From a virus, in IMG/VR virus record IMGVR_UViG_3300048919_000202, positions 1 to 24,672 of that record: a stretch of 24,672 bases of DNA, one strand, 5' to 3'. Under the pieces are notes generated by a model, which was given only the letters and a program-made list of their open reading frames with translations, was not told the DNA's origin and did no database searches. Positions within the stretch are counted from its first letter, which is position 1; each line of letters begins with the position of its first letter. Below, piece after piece: positions 1,326 through 22,144 of this stretch. The translations under genes were made by a program, and so were the position numbers.

Positions 1326-4300
1326 GTGGCTGAAAACCTTTTTCTCAAGTCGCCCTCCGCGATTGCCCCCACTGCCACGGCGCCCACTGCGCCGCCCATG
1401 CCCAACCTCCAGACCCTGCCACCGCGCAGCTCCAGTGCCGGTCCGCTGACCTCCAGCGCCGCGACCGTCATGAGTCAAGGCCTGTTGCCGCCACCAGACC
1501 TTCAGCCCCTGTTCGAGAAATACTCCGCTGAAACCGGCGTGCCGCTCAATGTGTTGTCGGCCCTGGCGCAGCAGGAGTCGGGCTACAACCCCAATGCCAT
1601 TGGTGAAATGACCAAATGGGGCCAGGCCAAAGGCATGCTGCAAAACCTCGACAGCAACGCCAAGAGCTTGGGGATCAACCCGTTCAATGCGGAACAGTCG
1701 ATTGCCGGCGCGGCGCGGCAGCTGCGCGAGCGACTGGACAAGGGTTACAGCATGGAAGATGCGGTGAAAGCCCACTTCGGGGGTGATAACCGTGAGCAGT
1801 GGGGCGAGAAGACCAACGCCTACGGGCAAGAGGTGCTGGCCAAGGCCGGGATCATCGGCGACCAGCTGATGGCCGGAAAGCAGAAGGCCGCACCTGTCTC
1901 GCCGGGCAATGACCTGGCCGCGATTCAAGCGGAAATGGATGCCAAGGAGCCAGGGCGTTACAAGGTGATCGACCCGGCTGATATCGCTCAGCGCGACCAG
2001 CAGCGCGCCACCCTCGCCAGCGGCAAGGACGCTTTGCAGAATGCACAGCAGGCTACGGGCGCCTATCAAGCCCCTTCGCCGCTGACCCTGACCAATCAGC
2101 AGGCCGTCGAAGACCGGGTGAACAGCGCGCCAGCGCCCTCGCCACTGACGCCGACCAACCAGGAACTGGTGCAAAAGGGCATGGCGCCGGTCGATACACG
2201 CCCGGAAGATGGCTTTGCCGCCGCCACCGGCAAACAATTGCAGAACTTCGGCCCGCACATGAAAGACGCCGTGGCTGGTCTGGTGCGCATGGGCAGCGAG
2301 AGCATCGACAACGCCACCCTGGTCGGCAACGCGGGTAGCTCCGGCATCATCCAGCGCATGCAGGATAATGGCGACATCATCATGGTGCAGAACGATCGGG
2401 GGCAGAACACCCCGACCCTGCGCAACGGCAAGCTGGCCGACGAAGCGAACATTGCCGCGTTCATTCGCGCCAATGCCGGCGAGCTGATGTCGCCTGATGA
2501 GGCTGGCGCACTGATCGGCATGAAGCCGCGCGCCGTCACCGAGTGGGCGCAGAAGACCGCCAAGCAAGCCAAGCTCGACACCATCGAGGTACGCCCGGAT
2601 GGCCCGCTGGCCAAATACGGCAGCATGATCATTGGCTCGACGGCGGAAATGATCCCGGCGCTGGCCGCTTCGGCGATCACCCGTAACCCGGCCGTGGGCA
2701 TGTCGTTAATTGGCGGCCAGGTCACCGGGCAAGGCTACAACAAGGGCCGATCCGGCGGGCTGAACGCGCAGGACGCTGGTAATTACGCCATCGCGCAGGG
2801 CATGGCCGAGGCCATCCCGGAATACCTGCCGATTCATGCCATCCTCGAACCCGGCAAGAACTTCTTCAAGGGCCTGCTCAAGGCCGGCGCTGCCGAGTCG
2901 GTGCAGGAAGGCGTGACCCAGATCATCCAGGATGGTCTGGACAAGGGTTCGATTGATCCGAACATGACGTGGGCGCAGGCGCGGCAGAACCTGGCCGATG
3001 CCATGATCACCGGTGCCGGCGCCGGTATGGCGCTAAAGGCGGGCGTGCACGGCCTTCAAAAAGCCGCCGATGCGATCCCGACGCGCGACCGTGAAGCCGA
3101 GGCGGCCGCCGCCGCTCAGGCCCAGCCCGCTCCCGCAGCCGAGCCCCAGCCACCACAGGCGCCCGAGGCTGCAACTGTCGCGCCGGCGCCAGCCCCCACC
3201 GGTCCACTGACCCGTGCCGCGCAGCACTACGTCGCGCCCGAGCCAGTAGTAGCCCCCGCAGCAGCAGAGCCAGCTGGGGAGCCGGTCACCGTGCGCAGCT
3301 CCGACGGTGAAATGGCCGGCACCCTGCAGGACTACCAAGACCACGGCCAGGGCCAGTGGACCGCGCGCGTGCTGGCCGACGACGGCAACGCCTACGACTT
3401 CACCCAAGACGATGGCGTACAGCTGGAACGCGCCAGTGCGCCGATCGCGCCAACGGCTGAGCCAGCGCAACCGGCGCAGGCCACCCCTGAGCCAGCACCA
3501 GCGGACAACATCCCGACGCTGACCGATGTAGTAGCGCCTGAAGCCTCGCCCGACTACACGTCGATGGACGTGCCGTCGTTGCGCGCCGAACTGAAAGCCA
3601 CCGCGACCGCGATCAAGGCCGACCCGAAGAACAAGGCGTTGACCAAGCGGCGCAGCGCCATTGAAAAGGCAATCAAGGCCGGCATCAACACCGCCGACAA
3701 GGCGCCGGCTGTCACCGAACTGACCGGCGACAAGATCGATAAGCAATGGTCGCGCTTCGCCGATGACTCGGGCAGCCTCAACGTGCCACGCGCCGACATG
3801 CCGCAGATCAAGGCCGAGCACCGTGGCGCGATGGTCAACTTTCTCAATGCGCGCGACATCGCCCACACGCAGGAAGAAGTCCCGGCCAGCAGCCTGAAGC
3901 CAACGCAGGAAGAGTTCAGCCCGGCCAAGGTCAAGAAAGCCTTGGGTTATGAAGGCGGCGACCGTTCGATCCTGATTTCCAGCGACAACCATGTGCTCGA
4001 CGGCCATCACCAGTGGCTGGCCAAGGTCGATGGCGATCAGCCGGTGAAGGTCATTCGCCTGGACGCACCGATCCAACAACTGCTCGACACCGTGCGCGAG
4101 TTCCCCAGTGCCGAGACGGCCAATGGTGCGACCGCCGCACCAGCGCCAACAGCTGAGCCGACTAATAGCTTGTCGCGCACTGCCAGTTGGGCGATCCGCG
4201 ATAAGGCGACCGGCGAAGTGGTCATGGAAACCTTCGATAAGAAGAAGGTCGACGCGCTGAACACCGACAAATACGAGGCGGTGCCGATTCAGCAGCACCT

Positions 4301-7300
4301 GGCCGAAGTCAATCAGTCGATCAAGGCCGGTGATGAGACGGGTAAGATCAAGCCGGCCGCTGCAACAGAACCGGCCAAACCTGCATCAAAACCGGTGGAA
4401 ACTGCATCGCCAGCGCCTAAACCTGCATCAGCAGTGACCGAACCGGCATCGAAACCGCAGACGCCGCAACAGAAGGCCAAGGCCCGCGCCGAAGCCCAGC
4501 GTCAGGCCGCGCGCGACCGTATGGGCGGAATCAAGGAGGGCGAGCAGTTCATCCCGTCCGCTGACGTGGGTTACATCAGCGGCGGTGAAACCTACACTGT
4601 CGACAGCATCGACAGCAAAGGCAACGTCTACGTTAAGCGCAGCGGCACCAACAGCGGCACCCACCTGTCGCACGCCGACTTCAACGGGGCCGAGCATAAG
4701 GGCGTGACCTTTGCCAAGGTCGAGCCAGCAGCCCCGGCAACCCGTGCAGAAACTGCACCCGTTCAACCAGCCATGGAAACACCAACAACCCCGGCCGAAA
4801 CCGCCGCTGAACTGGTGAAGTCCGCCGAGTACGGCGCTAGCAACAAGCTGGTAAGCCAAGACCGCGCGGCCGAACTGCGCGAGCGCCTGAAGAAGAAACT
4901 CAACGGCTCGCAGCTGAACAGCGGCATCGATCCGGAAATTCTCGCGCTCGGCACCGAGCTGGCGGTGTTCCACATCGAGGCCGGCGTGCGTCAGTTCGCC
5001 GCCTTCGCCAAGACCATGGCCGAAGACCTAGGCCAGCCGCTGGAGAAAGTTCGACCGTACCTGCGCAGCTGGTTTAACGGTGCGCGCGACATGATGGAAG
5101 ACGCCGGCCACTCGGTCGACGGCATGGACAACGCCGACACCGTGCGCGCCGAACTGGCAAAGCTGGATCAGGCGCCGGCCACTGAGGCAAAAAGCGCCCC
5201 CGTTCAAACCGCCCCGGCAACTACCGATAAATCCTCGGCAGTTCAAGAACCAGCCGAAGAATCACCGACCCTAGCCACTGGCGTGTACAGCCATAAGCAG
5301 CACCCGGAAGTGACAGCTACGGTCAGCCAGACGGATAAGGGCTACGCTATTGAGTGGGCGCCTGATGATGTTCAGGAGTTCAAAGGTAAACATGCGGTCG
5401 CCAAAGCACAGGCGGCGCTATCTAAAGAGGGTTACACCCTCAACGAGGAATCTGATGCAACAAGTCCCAGCGAGCGTGTGGAACCAAATCGCCCAGACCG
5501 AACCGCTGCAAAATCCGTCGATGCGCCTGCTGTTCGCAATGAGCCAGCCGCAGCTGGACGCCGCACTGGCGAGCCAGGCGCAAGCGCTGTCGACAGCGGG
5601 GCAGACGGACAGCGTAATCAACGCCTACCAGCTGATGGCGCCGCTGCTGGCCGAGAATCAGGCGATCAGCGCGTACATCAACCGGACGGGGCATTCCGAC
5701 CTACGCTCGGCGATGCCGGAAGTGTTGAACCCGCCCGAAGCGGTGGCGATAGCGACACAGGAAAACCCGTTGAGCGCGAACGAGCAGCGCACATTGTTGA
5801 CACTGCTCCGGCCACTGATGCCGACGAGTTCAGTCAACGTCTAGCCGCGCAAAAGCAAGCGACCGGCACCAAGACCGTTCGCGGCGACCAAGCCAACATC
5901 GATAAAGCCTTGCCCCTCCTGCTGGAGCCTCAGCGCGGCGACGTGCTCAAGGCCGAGCAGCGTTTCGCTGTGGGCAACGGCATGCTGCTCACCAACGGCA
6001 CCGGCACCGGCAAGACCGCCAGCGGCATGGGCCTCGTTGTGCGCTCGATCAACGCCGGCAAGCCCAACGCCCTGGTGGTGGTGCCAAGCGACAAGATCGC
6101 CTCGGACTGGATCAAGTTCGCCAAGATGCTGGGCGTGAACCTGAAGCAACTGGAAAGCACCAGCGACAACGGCACAGACGGCCAGGTCATCACCACCTAT
6201 GCCAACTTCGGCGCCAACGATAGCTTAGCCCTGCGCGACTGGGATCAGGTCGTGGCCGATGAGGCGCATTACCTGTCGAGCAACGAGAAGGGTGAAGGCA
6301 CGGGCGCGCTGGCCAAACTGCAAGGCTTGACCGGTCACCCGGATGGCTTCTATCAGTGGGTGCGTGAGCGCAACCCGAAAGAATGGGGCGCCTACAAGGA
6401 GGCAATGAACGCCAGCCGCGACGCAGCGAAAGATTCCGCCACCACCCAAACGCAGAAAGACCAGCTGGCCGAAGTTGAAGGTAAGCAAAAGGCGCTGTGG
6501 GACGCTATCGAGAAGCCGGCCAAGAAAGCCTGGCAAGACCGCTGGGCCAAGCAGCAAGACCTGCCGAAAACCCTGTTCCTCTCGGCCACCCCGTTCGCCT
6601 ACGTCAAAAGCGTGGACTACGCCGAGGGTTATCTGTTCGATTACGTTGATCCGGCCGAGCGCTTCAGCAACAAGGCGGAAATAGCCGGTTCGGCCTACAA
6701 CAGCGGCGATGCGCGTGAAAAGTTTTTCATGCAGCACTTCGGCTACCGCATGCGTTACAACAAGTTGACCGCGCCGGAAGCCGGGGTGGATTCCGAACTG
6801 ATGGAGCAAGGTTTTAACCAGCACCTGAAGGACATCGGCGCCCTATCGGGCCGACGCCTGGAAGTGCCGTATGACTACGACCGCAAGTTTGTGATGGTCG
6901 ATGACGCCGTGGGCCAGAAGATCGACCAAGGCCTGGCCTTCCTGCGCGAGCATGCTGACGGCAAGTACCGCAAGGTCTATGACGCGGTCATGGCGACCTT
7001 CGACTACCAGCGCCGCATGTACCTGCTGGAATCGATCAAGGCCAAGGCCGTGGTGCCAATGATCAAGGAGCACATGGCGCTGGGCCGCAAAGTGGTGGTG
7101 TTCCACGACTACAACAAGGGCGGCGGCTTCGATCCGTTCAACGCCGGACTGGCCAGCATTACCGAGGCGGATGTCCGCGCGCTGGCCCGCGAAGCCTTTG
7201 CCGCGCGCCCGGACATCTTCAAGAAGATGGACCTGACCGGCCTGTACTCGCCGATTGAAACCCTGTCGGCGGCCTTTCCTGACGCACTGTTCTTCAACGG

Positions 7301-10300
7301 CACCGTGCCGAAAGCCAAGCGCCGCGCCAATGCCGACACCTTCAACGACGACACCAGCGGCAAGGACTTGATTGTCTTGCAGTCGGACGCCGGCCGCGAA
7401 GGCGTGAGCTTGCACGACACCACTGGCCAGCACATGCGCGTGCTGATCAACCTCGGCATGCCAGGCAAACCGGTGGCCGCGATCCAGATCGAAGGCCGCA
7501 CCTACCGCACGGGCCAGGCCAGTGATGCCGCGTTCCGCTACCTGACCACCGGCACCGCCTGGGAAGCCAGCGCCTTTGCCAGCAAGATCGCCGAGCGCGC
7601 CTCGACCGCTGAAAACTTGGCGCTGGGCACCGAAGCCCGCGGTTTGAAACAATCCTTCATCGACGCCTACAACGGCGCCGAAGACCTGGCCCCGAGCGCC
7701 GAGGATGGCAAGGGCGGCAAGGCACTGGATCGTGAGTTGGGCGCCGCTTCGACGCTGACCCCGTTCAACCGGGCCAAGGCCTTTTACTTCGCACAGCAGA
7801 AGAACACCAAGCGCCGCGACCAGCGCGAAGGCACCGACTATTTTGCCACCCCGGAACCGGTCGGCTTCAAGATGGCCGAGTGGGCGAACATCCAGAAGGG
7901 TGACGACGCGCTGGAACCGTCGGCCGGGCATGGCGCCATCGCGCGCTTCTTCCCGCCGCAAACCAACGTCACCATGGTCGAGCCGAGCTATGACCTGTCG
8001 CAGCGGGCGGCCCTGGCCAACGGCAACGCGCGGATCATCAACGACAACTTCGAGTCGTTGCACCGGACCAACAAGTACGACGCCGTGGTGATGAACCCGC
8101 CTTACGGCAACGGCGGCAAGACCGCCATCGAGCACGTCGCCAAAGCCGCACAGCACCTGCGCGAAGGCGGCCGGATCGTCGCCTTGATTCCGCGCGGCGG
8201 CCTGACTGACAAGCGCCTGGCATCCTTCTTGGAAAGCGAAGAGGCGCAGAGCCTGCACCGAGTGGCCACCTTTGTCATGCCGGCCTCGACCTTCGAGCGC
8301 GCCGGTACGTCGGTCAACACGCAGGTCATCGTGCTGGAGAAACACAGCAACCCGGACGACGCATTGAACATCCATGCGCGCACGGTCGACCTGAGCAATG
8401 CCCAATCGACTGGCGAACTGTTCGACCGCATCGAGCACTTGGACCTGCCCGACCGCATGCCGAGCAGCAAACCCGAGCCGAAGCCGGTCATGATTGAGCA
8501 CGTCACCGGCAAGGGTAAAACCATCACCGGTATCGTGCGCACCGACCTGACCAAGGATGAAGCCAAGGAAATCGACCCGTACACCTTCCCGAAAAACGGT
8601 GGCTTCTTCATCCGATCCAAGTACCTGGGCGACGGTAATCGCCTGTCGGTGGCCACCCCGGTCGGCGAACCGGCTTCGCATGAAGAAGTACGCGACGCCA
8701 TCACCCAAGGCCCGTTCGGCCCGGTGGTCAAGAAGCTGATCGATGCCGGGCACATCGTGGTTCACGGCAACGTGCAATCGCTGCCCGACGGCGTCACCCC
8801 TGTGCGCGGCATGCAGGCGGTCACTACGCCCGACGGCACTGTGCACTTGATCGCAGCCAACCTGACCCCGGGCAATGCCAACGGCGTGCTGCTGCATGAA
8901 ATGTTTCACAGTGGTGGCGAGCAGCTGGTCGGCTCCAAGCGCTGGGCCGAGCTGATGCAGCGCCTGGACGCTTTGCACCGTCAGGCCGAGCAATCCACCG
9001 GCAAGGCCCGTGAAGTGTTTGACCGCGCCCGTGAGCGCGTCAAGCAGGCGCAGGATCAAGGCGCGGTTGCCGATGGCATGACTGCCGAAGAGTTCGGCGC
9101 CTACGCCATTGAAGAGCACGCGCAGCTGCCGGCCGCCTTCCGCAAGTGGGTCGACGACCTGGTGGGCGCCATCAAGCACTGGCTGTTCAGCCGCTACGGC
9201 AAGCAACTGGGCCAGGTCACCCCGGCGCAACTGCGTGCCATGGCCAAGGATGCGTTGGTGTCGATGGCCCTGGCCAAGCGTGGCGAGCTGTTCGGCCCGG
9301 CCGGGACCATGTTCAGCGTCAAGTTGTCGGAGCACTTCGACGACATCAAGAACAATGCCGACGCCACCAGTTTCAGCGACAAGATCGGTCCGGTGAAACT
9401 GCCGCAGCGGATGGCGGATCGCTGGCGCCAACTGACCGATAACCTCGGTCTGCGCATTCGCCAGGCAGCCGTCGACCGTTACGCGCCACTGATGCGCAAC
9501 GACCAAGCCCTGTACGGCGCCGACACCCTGGAAGGCTCGATTGCCTCCAGTTCGTGGGTGTTGGCACGCATGAGCCAGGCCGCAGGCGGCGCGGTAGATG
9601 CCTTGCTGCATCACGGCCGCATCTACCTTGATCCGGTGGAAAAGGTCATTGACCTGCACGACAACAGCAAAGGCTTGGGCGACACCCTGAATAAGCTCGG
9701 TAGCGTGGCGGAAATGACCCGTTTCATGGGTTGGATCGCGGCCAACCGATCCAAGCGCCTGCTCGGCGAAGGCCGTGAAAACCTGTTCACCCCGGCCGAA
9801 ATCGAGGCCGGTATCAAGTTCAGCGGTGGCAAACTGGCTGACGGCAAGAGCCGGAGCATTCTCTATCAGCAAGTGTGGAAAGAGTTCCAGCAGCACCGCG
9901 ACGACGTGCTGGGCATTGCCGAGCAGTCGGGCATCATCACCCCTGAGCAGCGCGCTACCTGGAGCGATGAGTTTTATGTACCGTTCTATCGGGTGATCGA
10001 CAGCGAAAACCTCGGCGGCCCATCCTCGGGCGGCGGTGGTCTGTCGCGTCAGCAGGCATTCAAAAAACTCAAGGGCGGCAAGCAGCACCTCAACGACTTG
10101 CTGGAAAACACCCTGCTCAATTTCCACCACCTGGTGCAAGCCAGCCTGAAGAATCAGGCCGCGACGCAGGCCATGGACAACGCCGAGCAGCTGGGCATTG
10201 CCGACAAGACTACCGAGGCGCACCGCGACAAGAAGGCCAGCACCTTCGTCATGGAGAACGGGATTAAGCAGTGGTACAACGTCAACGACCCGCTGACCTT

Positions 10301-11966
10301 CAAGGCGGTGTCGGCGATCACTGACGCGGGCACCAATACCCTGTCGCGGCGGGTGATGCGCGGCTTCAAACGTTTCTTTACCAACATGACCACCATCACC
10401 CCGCAATTTGTGGTGGCGAACGCCATCCGCGACACGCTGGCGGCCATGGCCACGTCGCCGACCAGCGCCATCCCGCTGAAAACCGCGTTCAAGGGCGCGC
10501 TGACTTACGGCAACAACCGCCAGCGCGCCCGCCTGATGGCCAGCGGCGGCGGTTTCCACTTTGGCCAGGTCTACGGCCATGGCGCCACCGAGTTCAAGGC
10601 CTCGCTCAATGGCACCATGCGCGCCGCGCAAGTGCTCAAAGACCCGATGCTGATCCCGAACACGCTGATGAAGGCCTGGCGCAAATACCATGACGTCACC
10701 GACTTTGCGGAGAACATGAACCGCGCCGGGATTTGGGAGCACAACCAGAGCAGAGGCAAACTCAAGGCCGCGTTTGAAGCGCGCGACCTGATGGACTTCA
10801 GCGCACACGGCGATGCCGGGATTATCCGCTTCTTCACCGATGTGGTGCCGTTCCTCAATGCGCGCATCCAAGGCCTGGACAAGCTCTATCGCTCGGGCGG
10901 CAAGCCGGCGTTGAAAACCCTGTTCGGCAAGGGCACCAAATCGGACAAGCAGGCCTTCGCCCGCTTCGCGTCGGTGGTTGGTGCGCTGACCGCCTTCAGC
11001 GTGATGCTCTATCTGCGCAACAAGGACGACGAGGATTACCGCAAGCTGGAAGACTGGCAGCGCGACACCTATTGGGTGATCAAGATCGGCGGCAACATGT
11101 TCTTCATTCCGAAGCCGTTCGAAGTGGGCTCGATCGCCACCATGGGCGAGCGCCTGATGGAGCAGTTCGTGGACCCGACCGTGGGCGGCGACAAGCTGGG
11201 CAGCCGGGCCTTGCACATTCTGCTGGACACCTTCGCGATGAACCCGACGCCACAGGCATTCAAGCCGGCATTCGAGTTGTGGGCGAACGAAAACACCTTT
11301 ACCGGGCGGCCGATTGAAGACCAGTCGATGCAGCGCCTCAGCCCCAGCCTGCGCGCGCGGCCGGACACCACGCGCCTGGCGGAAGCGTCGAGCCGCGGCA
11401 TCGAAAGTGCGCTCGACGTGATCGGTGCCGGTAACTCGGCGCTGTCACCGGTGCAGATCGATCACCTGATCCAGGGTTATATGGGTGCAGTGGGCTCGAC
11501 CGCCATCGGCATGGCCGACACGTTCTGGCGTCGGGCGCAAGGCGAAGAGTTGCCGGCGCGTAGCTGGGATGAATACCAGCCGGTGAAGCGCTTCTACAAG
11601 GATTTGACCAAGGAGGACAACTACACGCGCTACGGCACCGACTTCTACACCGCGCTGAAGAAATCCGACCAGGCCTATGCCGACCTGCAACACCTGGCCA
11701 AGTATGGCGAGGAAGAGAAGGCTGTGGCGCTGGAGCAGAAAGAGGCAGATGTGCTGGCGTTGCGCGGCACCTTGAACAAGGTCAACCGGGATATGTCGCG
11801 CATTAATGCGGAAATGAAGCGCATCCAAGTGGACAAGGACATGGACGGCAAGACCAAGCGTCTGGAACTGGACCGCCTGCGCTCGATGCGCAACCTGATG
11901 ACCGAGGAAATCGGCAAGGACCTGGAGCAGCAGAAGATGACTAAGCGGGCGTCCGAGGGGAAATAA
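1326..11966 (+). CDS. giant polyvalent protein: transglycosylase, ParB-like, helicase, DNA methyltransferase, peptidase-like, LPD38-like
   Basis: A single 3546-residue frame begins at GTG 1326 behind GAGGG. Visible parts: lytic transglycosylase (about 58-175, likely catalytic Glu84 in QQESGYNP); hydrophobic helical region (about 430-580); Pro/Ala-rich linkers; ParB-like domain (about 825-920, DGHHQ at 892-896); helical module (about 1158-1282) typical of phage helicase-methylase proteins; SF2/SNF2-type helicase (about 1505-2110) with Walker A GTGTGKT 1558-1564, DEAH 1645-1648, SAT 1753-1755 and QIEGRTYRTGQ from 2054; N6-adenine-type methyltransferase (about 2170-2340) with EPSAGHG and NPPY 2257-2260; zincin-like HEMFH 2524-2528; LPD38-like region (about 2640-3440); coiled-coil tail. 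This matches the polyvalent proteins described by Iyer and Aravind, relatives in part of P1 DarB. These are thought to enter the cell with the DNA and counter restriction. The SLT domain probably helps cross the wall. The individual activities are inferred from motifs. Confidence 0.92.
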   Translation: MAENLFLKSPSAIAPTATAPTAPPMPNLQTLPPRSSSAGPLTSSAATVMSQGLLPPPDLQPLFEKYSAETGVPLNVLSALAQQESGYNPNAIGEMTKWGQAKGMLQNLDSNAKSLGINPFNAEQSIAGAARQLRERLDKGYSMEDAVKAHFGGDNREQWGEKTNAYGQEVLAKAGIIGDQLMAGKQKAAPVSPGNDLAAIQAEMDAKEPGRYKVIDPADIAQRDQQRATLASGKDALQNAQQATGAYQAPSPLTLTNQQAVEDRVNSAPAPSPLTPTNQELVQKGMAPVDTRPEDGFAAATGKQLQNFGPHMKDAVAGLVRMGSESIDNATLVGNAGSSGIIQRMQDNGDIIMVQNDRGQNTPTLRNGKLADEANIAAFIRANAGELMSPDEAGALIGMKPRAVTEWAQKTAKQAKLDTIEVRPDGPLAKYGSMIIGSTAEMIPALAASAITRNPAVGMSLIGGQVTGQGYNKGRSGGLNAQDAGNYAIAQGMAEAIPEYLPIHAILEPGKNFFKGLLKAGAAESVQEGVTQIIQDGLDKGSIDPNMTWAQARQNLADAMITGAGAGMALKAGVHGLQKAADAIPTRDREAEAAAAAQAQPAPAAEPQPPQAPEAATVAPAPAPTGPLTRAAQHYVAPEPVVAPAAAEPAGEPVTVRSSDGEMAGTLQDYQDHGQGQWTARVLADDGNAYDFTQDDGVQLERASAPIAPTAEPAQPAQATPEPAPADNIPTLTDVVAPEASPDYTSMDVPSLRAELKATATAIKADPKNKALTKRRSAIEKAIKAGINTADKAPAVTELTGDKIDKQWSRFADDSGSLNVPRADMPQIKAEHRGAMVNFLNARDIAHTQEEVPASSLKPTQEEFSPAKVKKALGYEGGDRSILISSDNHVLDGHHQWLAKVDGDQPVKVIRLDAPIQQLLDTVREFPSAETANGATAAPAPTAEPTNSLSRTASWAIRDKATGEVVMETFDKKKVDALNTDKYEAVPIQQHLAEVNQSIKAGDETGKIKPAAATEPAKPASKPVETASPAPKPASAVTEPASKPQTPQQKAKARAEAQRQAARDRMGGIKEGEQFIPSADVGYISGGETYTVDSIDSKGNVYVKRSGTNSGTHLSHADFNGAEHKGVTFAKVEPAAPATRAETAPVQPAMETPTTPAETAAELVKSAEYGASNKLVSQDRAAELRERLKKKLNGSQLNSGIDPEILALGTELAVFHIEAGVRQFAAFAKTMAEDLGQPLEKVRPYLRSWFNGARDMMEDAGHSVDGMDNADTVRAELAKLDQAPATEAKSAPVQTAPATTDKSSAVQEPAEESPTLATGVYSHKQHPEVTATVSQTDKGYAIEWAPDDVQEFKGKHAVAKAQAALSKEGYTLNEESDATSPSERVEPNRPDRTAAKSVDAPAVRNEPAAAGRRTGEPGASAVDSGADGQRNQRLPADGAAAGRESGDQRVHQPDGAFRPTLGDAGSVEPARSGGDSDTGKPVERERAAHIVDTAPATDADEFSQRLAAQKQATGTKTVRGDQANIDKALPLLLEPQRGDVLKAEQRFAVGNGMLLTNGTGTGKTASGMGLVVRSINAGKPNALVVVPSDKIASDWIKFAKMLGVNLKQLESTSDNGTDGQVITTYANFGANDSLALRDWDQVVADEAHYLSSNEKGEGTGALAKLQGLTGHPDGFYQWVRERNPKEWGAYKEAMNASRDAAKDSATTQTQKDQLAEVEGKQKALWDAIEKPAKKAWQDRWAKQQDLPKTLFLSATPFAYVKSVDYAEGYLFDYVDPAERFSNKAEIAGSAYNSGDAREKFFMQHFGYRMRYNKLTAPEAGVDSELMEQGFNQHLKDIGALSGRRLEVPYDYDRKFVMVDDAVGQKIDQGLAFLREHADGKYRKVYDAVMATFDYQRRMYLLESIKAKAVVPMIKEHMALGRKVVVFHDYNKGGGFDPFNAGLASITEADVRALAREAFAARPDIFKKMDLTGLYSPIETLSAAFPDALFFNGTVPKAKRRANADTFNDDTSGKDLIVLQSDAGREGVSLHDTTGQHMRVLINLGMPGKPVAAIQIEGRTYRTGQASDAAFRYLTTGTAWEASAFASKIAERASTAENLALGTEARGLKQSFIDAYNGAEDLAPSAEDGKGGKALDRELGAASTLTPFNRAKAFYFAQQKNTKRRDQREGTDYFATPEPVGFKMAEWANIQKGDDALEPSAGHGAIARFFPPQTNVTMVEPSYDLSQRAALANGNARIINDNFESLHRTNKYDAVVMNPPYGNGGKTAIEHVAKAAQHLREGGRIVALIPRGGLTDKRLASFLESEEAQSLHRVATFVMPASTFERAGTSVNTQVIVLEKHSNPDDALNIHARTVDLSNAQSTGELFDRIEHLDLPDRMPSSKPEPKPVMIEHVTGKGKTITGIVRTDLTKDEAKEIDPYTFPKNGGFFIRSKYLGDGNRLSVATPVGEPASHEEVRDAITQGPFGPVVKKLIDAGHIVVHGNVQSLPDGVTPVRGMQAVTTPDGTVHLIAANLTPGNANGVLLHEMFHSGGEQLVGSKRWAELMQRLDALHRQAEQSTGKAREVFDRARERVKQAQDQGAVADGMTAEEFGAYAIEEHAQLPAAFRKWVDDLVGAIKHWLFSRYGKQLGQVTPAQLRAMAKDALVSMALAKRGELFGPAGTMFSVKLSEHFDDIKNNADATSFSDKIGPVKLPQRMADRWRQLTDNLGLRIRQAAVDRYAPLMRNDQALYGADTLEGSIASSSWVLARMSQAAGGAVDALLHHGRIYLDPVEKVIDLHDNSKGLGDTLNKLGSVAEMTRFMGWIAANRSKRLLGEGRENLFTPAEIEAGIKFSGGKLADGKSRSILYQQVWKEFQQHRDDVLGIAEQSGIITPEQRATWSDEFYVPFYRVIDSENLGGPSSGGGGLSRQQAFKKLKGGKQHLNDLLENTLLNFHHLVQASLKNQAATQAMDNAEQLGIADKTTEAHRDKKASTFVMENGIKQWYNVNDPLTFKAVSAITDAGTNTLSRRVMRGFKRFFTNMTTITPQFVVANAIRDTLAAMATSPTSAIPLKTAFKGALTYGNNRQRARLMASGGGFHFGQVYGHGATEFKASLNGTMRAAQVLKDPMLIPNTLMKAWRKYHDVTDFAENMNRAGIWEHNQSRGKLKAAFEARDLMDFSAHGDAGIIRFFTDVVPFLNARIQGLDKLYRSGGKPALKTLFGKGTKSDKQAFARFASVVGALTAFSVMLYLRNKDDEDYRKLEDWQRDTYWVIKIGGNMFFIPKPFEVGSIATMGERLMEQFVDPTVGGDKLGSRALHILLDTFAMNPTPQAFKPAFELWANENTFTGRPIEDQSMQRLSPSLRARPDTTRLAEASSRGIESALDVIGAGNSALSPVQIDHLIQGYMGAVGSTAIGMADTFWRRAQGEELPARSWDEYQPVKRFYKDLTKEDNYTRYGTDFYTALKKSDQAYADLQHLAKYGEEEKAVALEQKEADVLALRGTLNKVNRDMSRINAEMKRIQVDKDMDGKTKRLELDRLRSMRNLMTEEIGKDLEQQKMTKRASEGK
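5455..5844 (+). CDS. nested out-of-frame gene inside the polyvalent gene, 129 aa, unknown function
   Basis: ATG 5455 is preceded by GAGGA (5445-5449) with five bases between, and the frame closes at TAG 5842-5844. By hand count about 104 of its 129 codons end in G or C, against about 58 of 130 in the polyvalent frame over the same bases, so the nested frame carries the host-like codon signature. The product is a globular, helical, Gln/Ala/Leu-rich soluble protein (for example LLFAMSQPQLDAAL) with no Cys, signal peptide or membrane segment. The polyvalent frame here encodes only a low-complexity linker between a small module (ending near residue 1375) and the helicase (starting near 1505). The nested gene fills exactly that linker. 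I do not recognise a family. An alternative is a pair of compensating frameshifts, but the well-placed RBS and the stop codon argue against it. Confidence 0.78.
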   Translation: MQQVPASVWNQIAQTEPLQNPSMRLLFAMSQPQLDAALASQAQALSTAGQTDSVINAYQLMAPLLAENQAISAYINRTGHSDLRSAMPEVLNPPEAVAIATQENPLSANEQRTLLTLLRPLMPTSSVNV

Positions 11967-14003: not shown

Positions 14004-14467
14004 GTTCCTTCACGGCGTTCTCGGCGCCGTTGCTGATCCAATACGACCTGTCCGCCAGCCAGGCGCTGGGCGCGGATCACTGGCGGGTGGCCAAGGAATT
14101 CAAATACTTCATCGGTAGCGAAAACTCCCAGCGCTTTATCACTGTGCCGGCCGGCTACTTGACCGACGGCGCCAGCGTGCCGCGCGCCTTGTGGTCGATC
14201 ATCCCGCCCTGGGGCGCCTACGGTCAGGCCGCCGTCGTGCATGACATCCTGTGTGAATACCTGTCGATCATGGTCGCCGGCAAGCTGACGCCGATCACGC
14301 GTGAGCGCGCCGATGAAATCTTTGCAGAAGCCATGACAGTGCTACAGGTGCCGTCGCATGACGTCGCCCTGATCAGTGAGGGGGTGAAACTCTATCGCCT
14401 GGCCAGCGGCGCCAGCGCCCCCACCAATCGGCCCGAAAAGCGCGCACTCGAAGCGAGTTGGGCATGA
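14000..14467 (+). CDS. DUF1353 family protein
   Basis: A 155-residue protein. The VPAGYLTDGASVPRALWSII block (about residues 49-68) followed by AAVVHDILCEYL is the signature of DUF1353 (PF07087), a phage family of unknown biochemical function commonly found near lysis or tail genes. I chose GTG 14000 because it overlaps the preceding stop (GTGA) and gives the full family length. There is no membrane segment or signal peptide. The His-Asp pair in VVHDIL is conserved in the family, but no activity can be assigned. Confidence 0.85.
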   Translation: MSSFTAFSAPLLIQYDLSASQALGADHWRVAKEFKYFIGSENSQRFITVPAGYLTDGASVPRALWSIIPPWGAYGQAAVVHDILCEYLSIMVAGKLTPITRERADEIFAEAMTVLQVPSHDVALISEGVKLYRLASGASAPTNRPEKRALEASWA

Positions 14468-15009
14468 GCGGCTTCATCGATTACCGCGACTATCCCGAGC
14501 TGGTGCCGCTGGTGGACGGCCTGCGCACTCAATGGCAAGCCTTGCGCCAGGAAGCGCGCGCCGAGATAGGCGCCTTCATCAAGAGTCCCGAGGTCGATAT
14601 TCAGGATGCCGACGACATCCGCCTGTTCATCCTGCCGCTGAAGTGGCAAGGGCAGACGGTGAATGCCGGGCATGGTTTGGCGTATGCCGAGGAAATACTT
14701 GATCGCGTACCGGTCACCGCTGAGGCCATTGCCAACCCGCTGGTGGTATCGGTGATGTTCTCGCTGTCGGTGCCGGGCCTTGAGCTGATCCCGCACATCG
14801 ACAACGAGGAATGGATCGGCGCCGTGTGGCGCATTCATATCGGGCTCGATTGCCCGGACGGGTGCGGGCTGATGGTCGACGGCCAGGTGCAAACCTGGCA
14901 GGACGGTGAAGCGCTGATGTTCGACAGCGCGCGGGTAGAACACTCGGCGTGGAACCGAGGCGCCGCCCCGCGCTTGATACTGATCGTCGACGTTAAGCGA
15001 TTGGCGTAG
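14464..15009 (+). CDS. aspartyl/asparaginyl beta-hydroxylase-like dioxygenase
   Basis: A 181-residue protein whose C-terminal half matches the double-stranded beta-helix of the 2-oxoglutarate/Fe(II) Asp/Asn beta-hydroxylase family (PF05118). Visible features are HID (His111, Asp113), RIHIGLDCP, GLMVDGQ, WQDGEALMFD, the distal metal-type His160 in VEHSAWN, and Arg170 for 2-oxoglutarate. The family includes protein hydroxylases and the lipid A hydroxylase LpxO, so the substrate could be protein or lipid. ATG 14464 overlaps the previous stop (ATGA) and is preferred over an in-frame TTG six bases upstream. It is the last gene of the lysis cassette and overlaps the convergent gene by 17 bases. Confidence 0.82.
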   Translation: MSGFIDYRDYPELVPLVDGLRTQWQALRQEARAEIGAFIKSPEVDIQDADDIRLFILPLKWQGQTVNAGHGLAYAEEILDRVPVTAEAIANPLVVSVMFSLSVPGLELIPHIDNEEWIGAVWRIHIGLDCPDGCGLMVDGQVQTWQDGEALMFDSARVEHSAWNRGAAPRLILIVDVKRLA

Positions 15010-21004: not shown

Positions 21005-22144
21005 ATGTTCTTCAAAAACGTTATCGCTTACCGCCTTACCCAAACCATCGCTTTCGACGTCGCCGAACTGGAAGAGTTGTTGGCCGGTAAGGCGCACCGC
21101 GAGCCGGCATCGCAGGAACTGTCTACCTACGGTTTCGTTTCTCCATTCAAAAACGCCTTGGTGGAAACAGCGCTGGCACCGTCCGGCGAGTACCTGCTGA
21201 TTGCCGCGAAGAAGACCGAGCGCATCCTGCCCGGCAACGTGATCCGCGACGAGCTGAAAAAGAAGGTTGACGCGATCGAGTTTGAACAGCAGCGCAAGAT
21301 CTACAAAAAGGAACGTGACCAGATCAAGGATGAAATCATTCAGGAATTCCTACCGCGGGCTTTCCTTCGCTCGAAAGTAACCCATGCCCTGATCATGCCG
21401 GCCGCTGGCTTAGTCTTGGTTGATGCCAGTTCGCCGAAGGTCGCAGAGGATATTCTGTCTACCCTGCGTGAAGTGCTCGGCAGCCTTCCGGTTCGACCGC
21501 TGTCCGTGAAGATCGCTCCCGTCGCAACCATGACTGATTGGGTCAAGGTCCAGAAGGCTGCCGATGACTTTTTCGTGCTCGATGAGTGCGAAATGCGCGA
21601 CACCCACGAAGACGGCGGCACGGTAAAGTGCAAAGGCCAAGACCTGACCAGTAACGAAATCGAGGGGCACATCGCCACCGGGAAACTGGTCACCAAGCTG
21701 TCGTTGGCATGGAAAGATAAGTTCTCGTTCATGCTCGACGACAAGCTGGTTATCAAGCGCCTGCGCTTTGAAGATTTGTTGCAGGACCAGGCCGAAGCCG
21801 ATGGCGGTGATGACGCGCACGGCCAGCTGGTTGCATCGCTGATCATCATGGCCGGAGCCTTCGTTGAATTTTTCCCGGCCCTGCTCGATGCCTTGGGTGG
21901 CGAAGAGCTTCCGCAAGGGATTGATGTTGGTTCCGCCGACTTCGACGAACTCGCCGATCAGGAAAAGCTCGACCTGACCGAAGCCATAAAGTTTGTCCGT
22001 GAGAGTGGTAAGGCTTCGATCAGTGCGATTCAGCGCAAATTCACATGGGGTTATAACCGCGCGGCCCGGATGATCGAAGCACTTGAAAATGCCGGGGTGG
22101 TGACGCAGATGAACACCAACGGCTCGCGCGAAGTGATTCAATAA
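21005..22144 (+). CDS. rdgC: RdgC-like recombination protein fused to an FtsK-gamma DNA-binding domain
   Basis: A 379-residue protein. Residues about 1-300 match RdgC, a ring-forming DNA-binding protein that restrains Rec[13 protein letters not shown] at the start, [22 protein letters not shown], and LPRAFLRSK followed by the [12 protein letters not shown] block. Residues 324-379 are a separate winged helix with [31 protein letters not shown] and MNTNGSREV, which is the FtsK gamma domain that reads KOPS sequences in host chromosomes. Ordinary RdgC is about 300 residues and lacks this tail. AGAGG eight bases before ATG 21005 fits. The fusion suggests DNA-sequence-directed loading; that is inference. 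Confidence 0.92.

Follow-up and report, generated by a model that had tools for sequence, protein, structure and literature searches.

Giant injected proteins and embedded genes in phages

Among the systems described so far, the Dar system of phage P1 (DarB, Ulx, DdrA, DdrB, DarA and Hdf) resembles the locus reported here in combining a giant helicase-methylase, delivered with the DNA, with smaller co-packaged helpers. The P1 Dar proteins are packaged together, and Ulx, a protein of 146 aa whose gene adjoins darB (PMC9024508), has been described as aiding the localisation of DarB (PMC9024508, PMC12810830). The Bcep22-related Erwinia phage PEp14 encodes a DarB-like protein that shares the virion-module context and the giant size (4,914 aa). 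A further known class is that of the SNF2/strawberry-notch polyvalent proteins (Iyer et al. 2017, PMC5512222), which combine a helicase and a methylase with SLT and LPD modules. In a term search of PMC5512222, no mention of an overlapping gene was found, the word "nested" referring there to the nested-hairpin structure of ArdC-N. Embedded genes as a kind are already known in phages. In lambda, Rz1 is a complete phage gene lying in another frame of Rz, both are translated, and their products cooperate (cf. PMC6139136).

A polyvalent gene with a second gene in its linker

The window analysed here is a stretch of 24,672 nucleotides (IMG/VR virus record IMGVR_UViG_3300048919_000202). Its polyvalent gene belongs to the same class as the SNF2/strawberry-notch proteins and very probably carries, out of frame, a complete gene of 129 codons. 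The features of this locus are the following:

1326..11966, + strand: polyvalent (DarB-like) protein, 3,546 aa, GTG start (ORF; Pfam and PHROG matches)
1509..1823, + strand: SLT lytic transglycosylase module (Pfam PF01464, E 2.4e-10)
5445..5449, + strand: Shine-Dalgarno GAGGA of the nested gene (sequence and anti-SD pairing across loci)
5454..5846, + strand: polyvalent-frame stretch overlapping the nested gene, a low-complexity, order-poor linker, near-neutral and stop-free
5455..5844, + strand: very probable nested gene, 129 aa, no named family (ORF, homologues, dN/dS, giant-frame synonymous-divergence trough)
5976..6287, + strand: N-terminal lobe of the SNF2/strawberry-notch-type helicase (ResIII match), directly 3' of the nested gene (Pfam PF04851)
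5997-6017, + strand: Walker A motif GTGTGKT, within the helicase N-terminal lobe
7353..7679, + strand: Helicase_C_4 (strawberry-notch C-terminal) module (Pfam PF13871, E 3.1e-9)
7953..8195, + strand: methyltransferase (MTS) module (Pfam PF05175, E 1.4e-6)
11028..11579, + strand: LPD38, large polyvalent protein associated domain (Pfam PF18857, E 2.6e-41)

With its great length and its helicase, methylase and LPD modules (Pfam, PHROG), the host gene meets the criterion for a polyvalent, DarB-like gene, and the PHROG matches of its product are DarB-like and DNA methyltransferase. The giant protein is likely to be packaged in the virion and injected with the DNA, an inference that rests on its protein class and not on virion proteomics.

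Several differences set this locus apart from the systems above. In P1 DarB, the helicase comes after the methylase, and the protein matches the helicase profile of the window only marginally (E 0.006); the helpers of DarB are encoded by separate genes, with no nested homologue. When profiles of the nested product were compared with the six frames of P1 positions 1-30000, a region including darB, ulx and ddrA, no significant match was found, and the darB region of PEp14 revealed no member of this helicase family and no nested ORF. As the arrangement of DarB differs and no nested match occurs in the darB regions of P1 or PEp14, the comparison with Ulx is a functional analogy only; membership of the nested product in the Ulx or DdrA family was rejected for want of sequence homology. 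The pair Rz1/Rz shares with the window the presence of a complete phage gene within another frame of a longer gene. Rz1 is however a lipoprotein of a spanin pair, whereas the nested product is an unrelated helical protein, and here the overlap falls in an interdomain linker of a host gene of several thousand codons.

Start and translation signal of the nested gene

The initial annotation, made without database searches, had proposed a complete gene with its own Shine-Dalgarno, start, 129 codons and stop, and this claim held on both sequence and comparative evidence. As read from the sequence, the nested ORF runs from an ATG at 5455 to a TAG stop at 5842-5844 (129 codons), with a spacing of 6 nt between GAGG and the ATG, and is fully embedded in the polyvalent gene (1326-11966) in the +1 frame relative to it. 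Length by itself is weak evidence, since spurious antisense ORFs in the same gene region reach 1,457 aa. What decides the matter is comparison among relatives, namely the synonymous divergence of the giant frame, the selection on the nested frame and the recurrence of the ORF together with its start and ribosome site. Over 42 distinct loci, the median anti-SD pairing at the nested ATG is -6.9 kcal/mol, as compared with -2.2 kcal/mol at out-of-frame ATGs elsewhere in the same giant genes (n=3,591; P = 3.5e-18); the signal is weak or absent at a few nested starts (L065, L077 and L079). With a conserved ATG and this pairing, the locus meets the embedded-gene criterion of an own start and ribosome-binding signal. 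A stop in the nested frame lies immediately 5' of the ATG in many loci, and read-in from upstream is therefore excluded at those loci.

These observations bear on an alternative in which programmed +1 frameshifting, with no separate initiation, yields a shortened polyvalent protein ending in the nested domain. The two frames are indeed related by +1, such a product would end at the nested stop, and no experiment excludes it. Against this, conservation of the N-terminus sets in precisely at the ATG, other out-of-frame ATGs have a far weaker Shine-Dalgarno, and, with a nested-frame stop directly 5' of the ATG, the shift would need to fall at the start codon itself. Because of the strength of the Shine-Dalgarno and the stops immediately 5' of the ATG, separate initiation is much likelier, and frameshifting is considered very unlikely. 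We conclude that 5455-5844 is very likely a genuine overlapping gene that has a start and a ribosome site of its own; this is inferred from sequence alone, in the absence of transcript, ribosome-profiling, peptide or knockout data.

Homologues and their frame

A protein search of isolate phages matched the nested product in Serratia phage Parlo, Pseudomonas phage Skulduggery, Klebsiella phage ZX1 and two Vibrio phages, in each of which it lies, unannotated, in the +1 frame of an annotated giant gene. Further nested loci were obtained from scans of IMG/VR and GTDB. Two nested loci came from Methylomonas/Methylococcaceae MAGs; a Methylomonas example is named in PMC5512222. Altogether, the homologues come from phages of Pseudomonas, Serratia, Klebsiella, Vibrio and Ruegeria, from Acinetobacter plasmids and from many IMG/VR contigs, with profile E-values of about 1e-5 to 1e-58 and identities reaching down to about 20-30%. 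Each lies within an open frame that encodes a helicase, shifted by +1 relative to it. Most share the start MxQVPxxVWN, and the ATG is conserved in all IMG/VR and GTDB loci except one group with a divergent N-terminus (L033/L070). In the IMG/VR and GTDB loci, the giant frame runs stop-free through the nested region and the nested frame is open; homologues with stops or frameshifts in the nested frame, the case that would have refuted the initial annotation, were not met among loci reaching far enough upstream.

Its place within the giant protein varies across loci, the nested gene starting as early as residue 182 and as late as residue 2081 (for cut giant genes, residues are numbered from the contig edge). 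In the Acinetobacter plasmid records, the helicase-methylase gene is shorter and the nested gene stands close to its beginning. The distance from the nested end to the Walker A motif is 51 codons in the window and 42-58 codons in all but one tabulated relative, the single exception being a contig that shows no Walker A.

The nested gene was annotated in none of the annotated records examined. No free-standing homologue was found in phages, plasmids, IMG/VR, one GTDB scan and 369 genomes of one class, and the one new match among these 369 genomes (L090) was again nested. Searches of the open-access literature revealed no report of the nested gene, most subscription papers being outside that scope.

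According to the artefact explanation, the frame would be a chance ORF or the result of paired compensating frameshifts (assembly error) in this record, and GC-rich phage genes do hold many long spurious ORFs. Yet the same +1 relation, with an open giant frame, recurs in isolate phages, plasmids, MAGs and dozens of metagenome contigs. A chance ORF or an assembly error was rejected on these grounds, as were compensating frameshifts in the giant gene, since the frame relation recurs across unrelated records; an artefact is all but excluded.

Selection on the two frames

Among nine close relatives, the synonymous divergence of the giant frame (pS) has a median of 0.40 and drops to a minimum of 0.039 within 5455-5844. 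A scan of the whole 10.6-kb giant gene found no second trough of this kind, and further same-strand nested genes in it are thus not indicated. Over the same bases and relatives, substitutions at nested codon positions 1, 2 and 3 amount to 29, 20 and 51%, and the dN/dS is 0.27 (0.17-0.36) for the nested frame, compared with 1.22 (0.83-1.92) for the giant frame. A wider set of 15 sequences gave 0.37 and 1.52, respectively. These ratios come from an overlap-aware count, our own simplified version of published methods. Two further embedded-gene criteria are thereby met, the second frame being under purifying selection and synonymous change in the host frame being suppressed only over the overlap.

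The giant frame was without a stop over the nested gene in 37/37 distinct sequences, while synonymous shuffles of the nested genes introduced about 0.4-3.3 giant-frame stops each; the 37 sequences are not independent trials because they share ancestry. Since dN/dS is low in the nested frame, and the giant frame is near-neutral and yet stop-free, both frames appear to be kept, only the nested one clearly for its residues. Very likely, then, the nested protein is what selection preserves, and the giant frame is there a sequence-tolerant linker that needs only to stay open, a conclusion again inferred from sequence alone. The comparison of rates per frame that the initial annotation had called for thus found nested residues conserved and the giant frame near-neutral, and its claim of protein-level selection on a nested frame through which the giant frame is merely kept open was upheld (dN/dS 0.27 vs about 1.2; 37/37 stop-free). 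Its description of the giant-frame stretch as a disordered linker is consistent with the composition, order-promoting residues making up 13% of that stretch vs 33% of the nested protein. Disorder of the overlap stretch is regarded as likely, from this order-poor composition and without a disorder prediction.

Base composition is less informative. The GC3 values counted by hand in the initial annotation (about 81% and 45%) were confirmed, with 0.81 for the nested and 0.45 for the giant frame over 5455-5844, and in AT-rich relatives the nested GC3 is 0.47-0.68 vs 0.24-0.39 in the rest of the giant gene. As position 3 of the nested frame is position 1 of the giant frame, the contrast is partly a matter of frame coupling. 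Its use as a stand-alone indication of the selected frame therefore failed, and the contrast was not taken to prove which of the two is under selection or came first.

It could also be argued that nested translation is a regulatory device, acting on ribosome traffic or coupling in the giant mRNA, and that the protein itself is irrelevant. Nested starts within long genes can alter ribosome flow. This reading is very unlikely, as the amino-acid sequence is conserved (dN/dS 0.27), and P, W, N, E and L positions are common to distant relatives, a degree of conservation that regulation by translation only does not require.

Searches led by the helicase

Other searches did not use the nested gene as a query. 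With the helicase segment as query, phage proteins yielded one more phage, Ruegeria phage 45A6, and seven further loci (L074-L080) came from a scan of IMG/VR with a helicase profile. All of them hold the nested ORF in the +1 frame, with nested-profile E-values below 1e-10. A DNA pattern for the helicase P-loop was found in at least 120 stretches, 80 of which were taken as loci. The nested ORF was present in 78 of these 80, always in +1, with a weak match (E 1e-5 to 1e-7) in a few. In the remaining two (L105 and L135), the sequence breaks off too soon on the upstream side, and the contig of L135 had already yielded the nested gene as L056, so that 78/78 testable P-loop loci hold the nested ORF. 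These loci cannot be taken as independent observations: among them are many near-identical elements of the Acinetobacter type and some contigs that had been found earlier.

As every testable helicase locus has the overlap, it can be dated to the ancestor of the family or before. Neither GC3 nor this distribution decides which of the two frames arose first.

Several of these loci have features of their own. In L117 and L145, the nested gene and the helicase are separated by an extra domain (LNxRQMEVLPRLxxAGAKVGYAxIKKG), and the order of modules differs; both belong to the weak-match subgroup (E 1e-5 to 1e-7), together with L096, L103 and L134. In L118 (6287-8002), the helicase-bearing open frame is only 572 codons long and the nested gene is intact, and it is possible that the giant gene was truncated or frameshifted there while the nested gene was kept. 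The Acinetobacter-type elements with a helicase-methylase gene and a nested ORF include L074 (an 81-kb contig), L085 and L086, a set comprising an 82-kb plasmid and a large A. baumannii record. Genes 5' of the helicase-methylase gene of L074 encode DarA_N and DdrB-ParB domains, a gene order that may point to a P1-like Dar operon.

The nested product and its possible role

Full-length homologues of the nested product have about 116-151 aa and a mean pI of 5.1. In the AlphaFold model, the nested protein folds into seven helices at a mean pLDDT of 76-77 and a pTM of 0.69, the N-terminus being the weaker part, and the product is thus predicted to be a small all-helical protein. No match was found in Pfam, PHROGs, NCBIfam or PADLOC, and Foldseek searches of PDB and BFVD with the model returned none with E below 1. 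A sequence match in PDB to a designed TPR protein was dropped, its E-value having weakened from 2e-4 to 0.02 with a broader profile. The near-invariant residues (M1, P5, W9, N10, P63, I71, E95, L106, L114 and L118) are unlike a catalytic set, for which reason we favour, by inference only, an adaptor or regulator over an enzyme.

In the explanation that we prefer, the nested protein would be translated from the same mRNA as the giant protein and would act as a dedicated partner of the SNF2-type helicase encoded 3' of its gene. By analogy with P1 Ulx, it may aid the folding of the giant protein, its loading into the virion or its control before injection. Across loci, the distances of the nested gene follow those of the helicase most closely (Spearman 0.75), and less so those of the methylase (0.61) or of the N-terminus (0.46). 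This tracking, together with retention beside the helicase across very different giant proteins, suggests a helicase-linked role. Linkage is possible without interaction, however, because a gene situated in a linker is physically passed on together with the module beside it, and the additional domain between nested gene and helicase in L117 and L145 speaks against partnership. Granted that the gene is real, a role as partner of the helicase or polyvalent protein, in assembly, localisation or control, is inferred without interaction data and could as easily prove wrong as right. The suggestion in the initial annotation of a late-made partner, immunity or assembly factor thus remains merely plausible, and the part that has been shown is the linkage to the helicase module.

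The main rival to this explanation accepts the gene as real but gives its product an independent job, such as host takeover, lysis timing or another virion function, in a linker that is merely tolerant. The same gene-level evidence applies to it, and no domain match ties the nested protein to DNA work or to Dar proteins. On the other hand, none of the searches made turned up the nested gene apart from this helicase family or as a gene standing alone, every one of the testable P-loop loci holds it, and its distances track the helicase best. An independent job is accordingly rated less likely than not.

A bolder form of the partner explanation would hold that every such SNF2-type helicase gene in phages and phage-plasmids is a two-product locus, whose linker encodes out of frame an obligate small partner, made and perhaps packaged or injected with the helicase, the overlap having arisen once in an ancestor and never been resolved since. 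This proposal is less probable than not.

Other genes of the window

Elsewhere in the window, positions 21005-22144 encode an RdgC protein with an FtsK gamma (DNA-sequence-reading) domain fused at its C-terminus; full-length matches with 54% identity occur in Pseudomonas aeruginosa phages, where they are annotated as DNA recombination-dependent growth factor. A gene of the aspartyl/asparaginyl beta-hydroxylase family (14458-15009; PF05118, E 8e-26) lies directly after holin, endolysin and tail-assembly-chaperone-like genes.

Significance

What is likely to be new here is the protein family, its wide conservation in one type of linker, and a giant frame that stays open with little or no constraint on its residues. 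Because the hidden gene occurs in every checkable related virus or plasmid sequence, gene-finding software has missed a whole protein family. An unannotated family, present in every testable relative of this helicase-bearing polyvalent class, is thus added, and gene callers are seen to hide conserved genes within very long phage genes. The locus also offers a clear case of a giant reading frame that serves only as an open linker across another gene. Since the nested start could be abolished with the giant protein left intact, the locus lends itself to asking whether injected anti-restriction proteins of this kind need a hidden second component.
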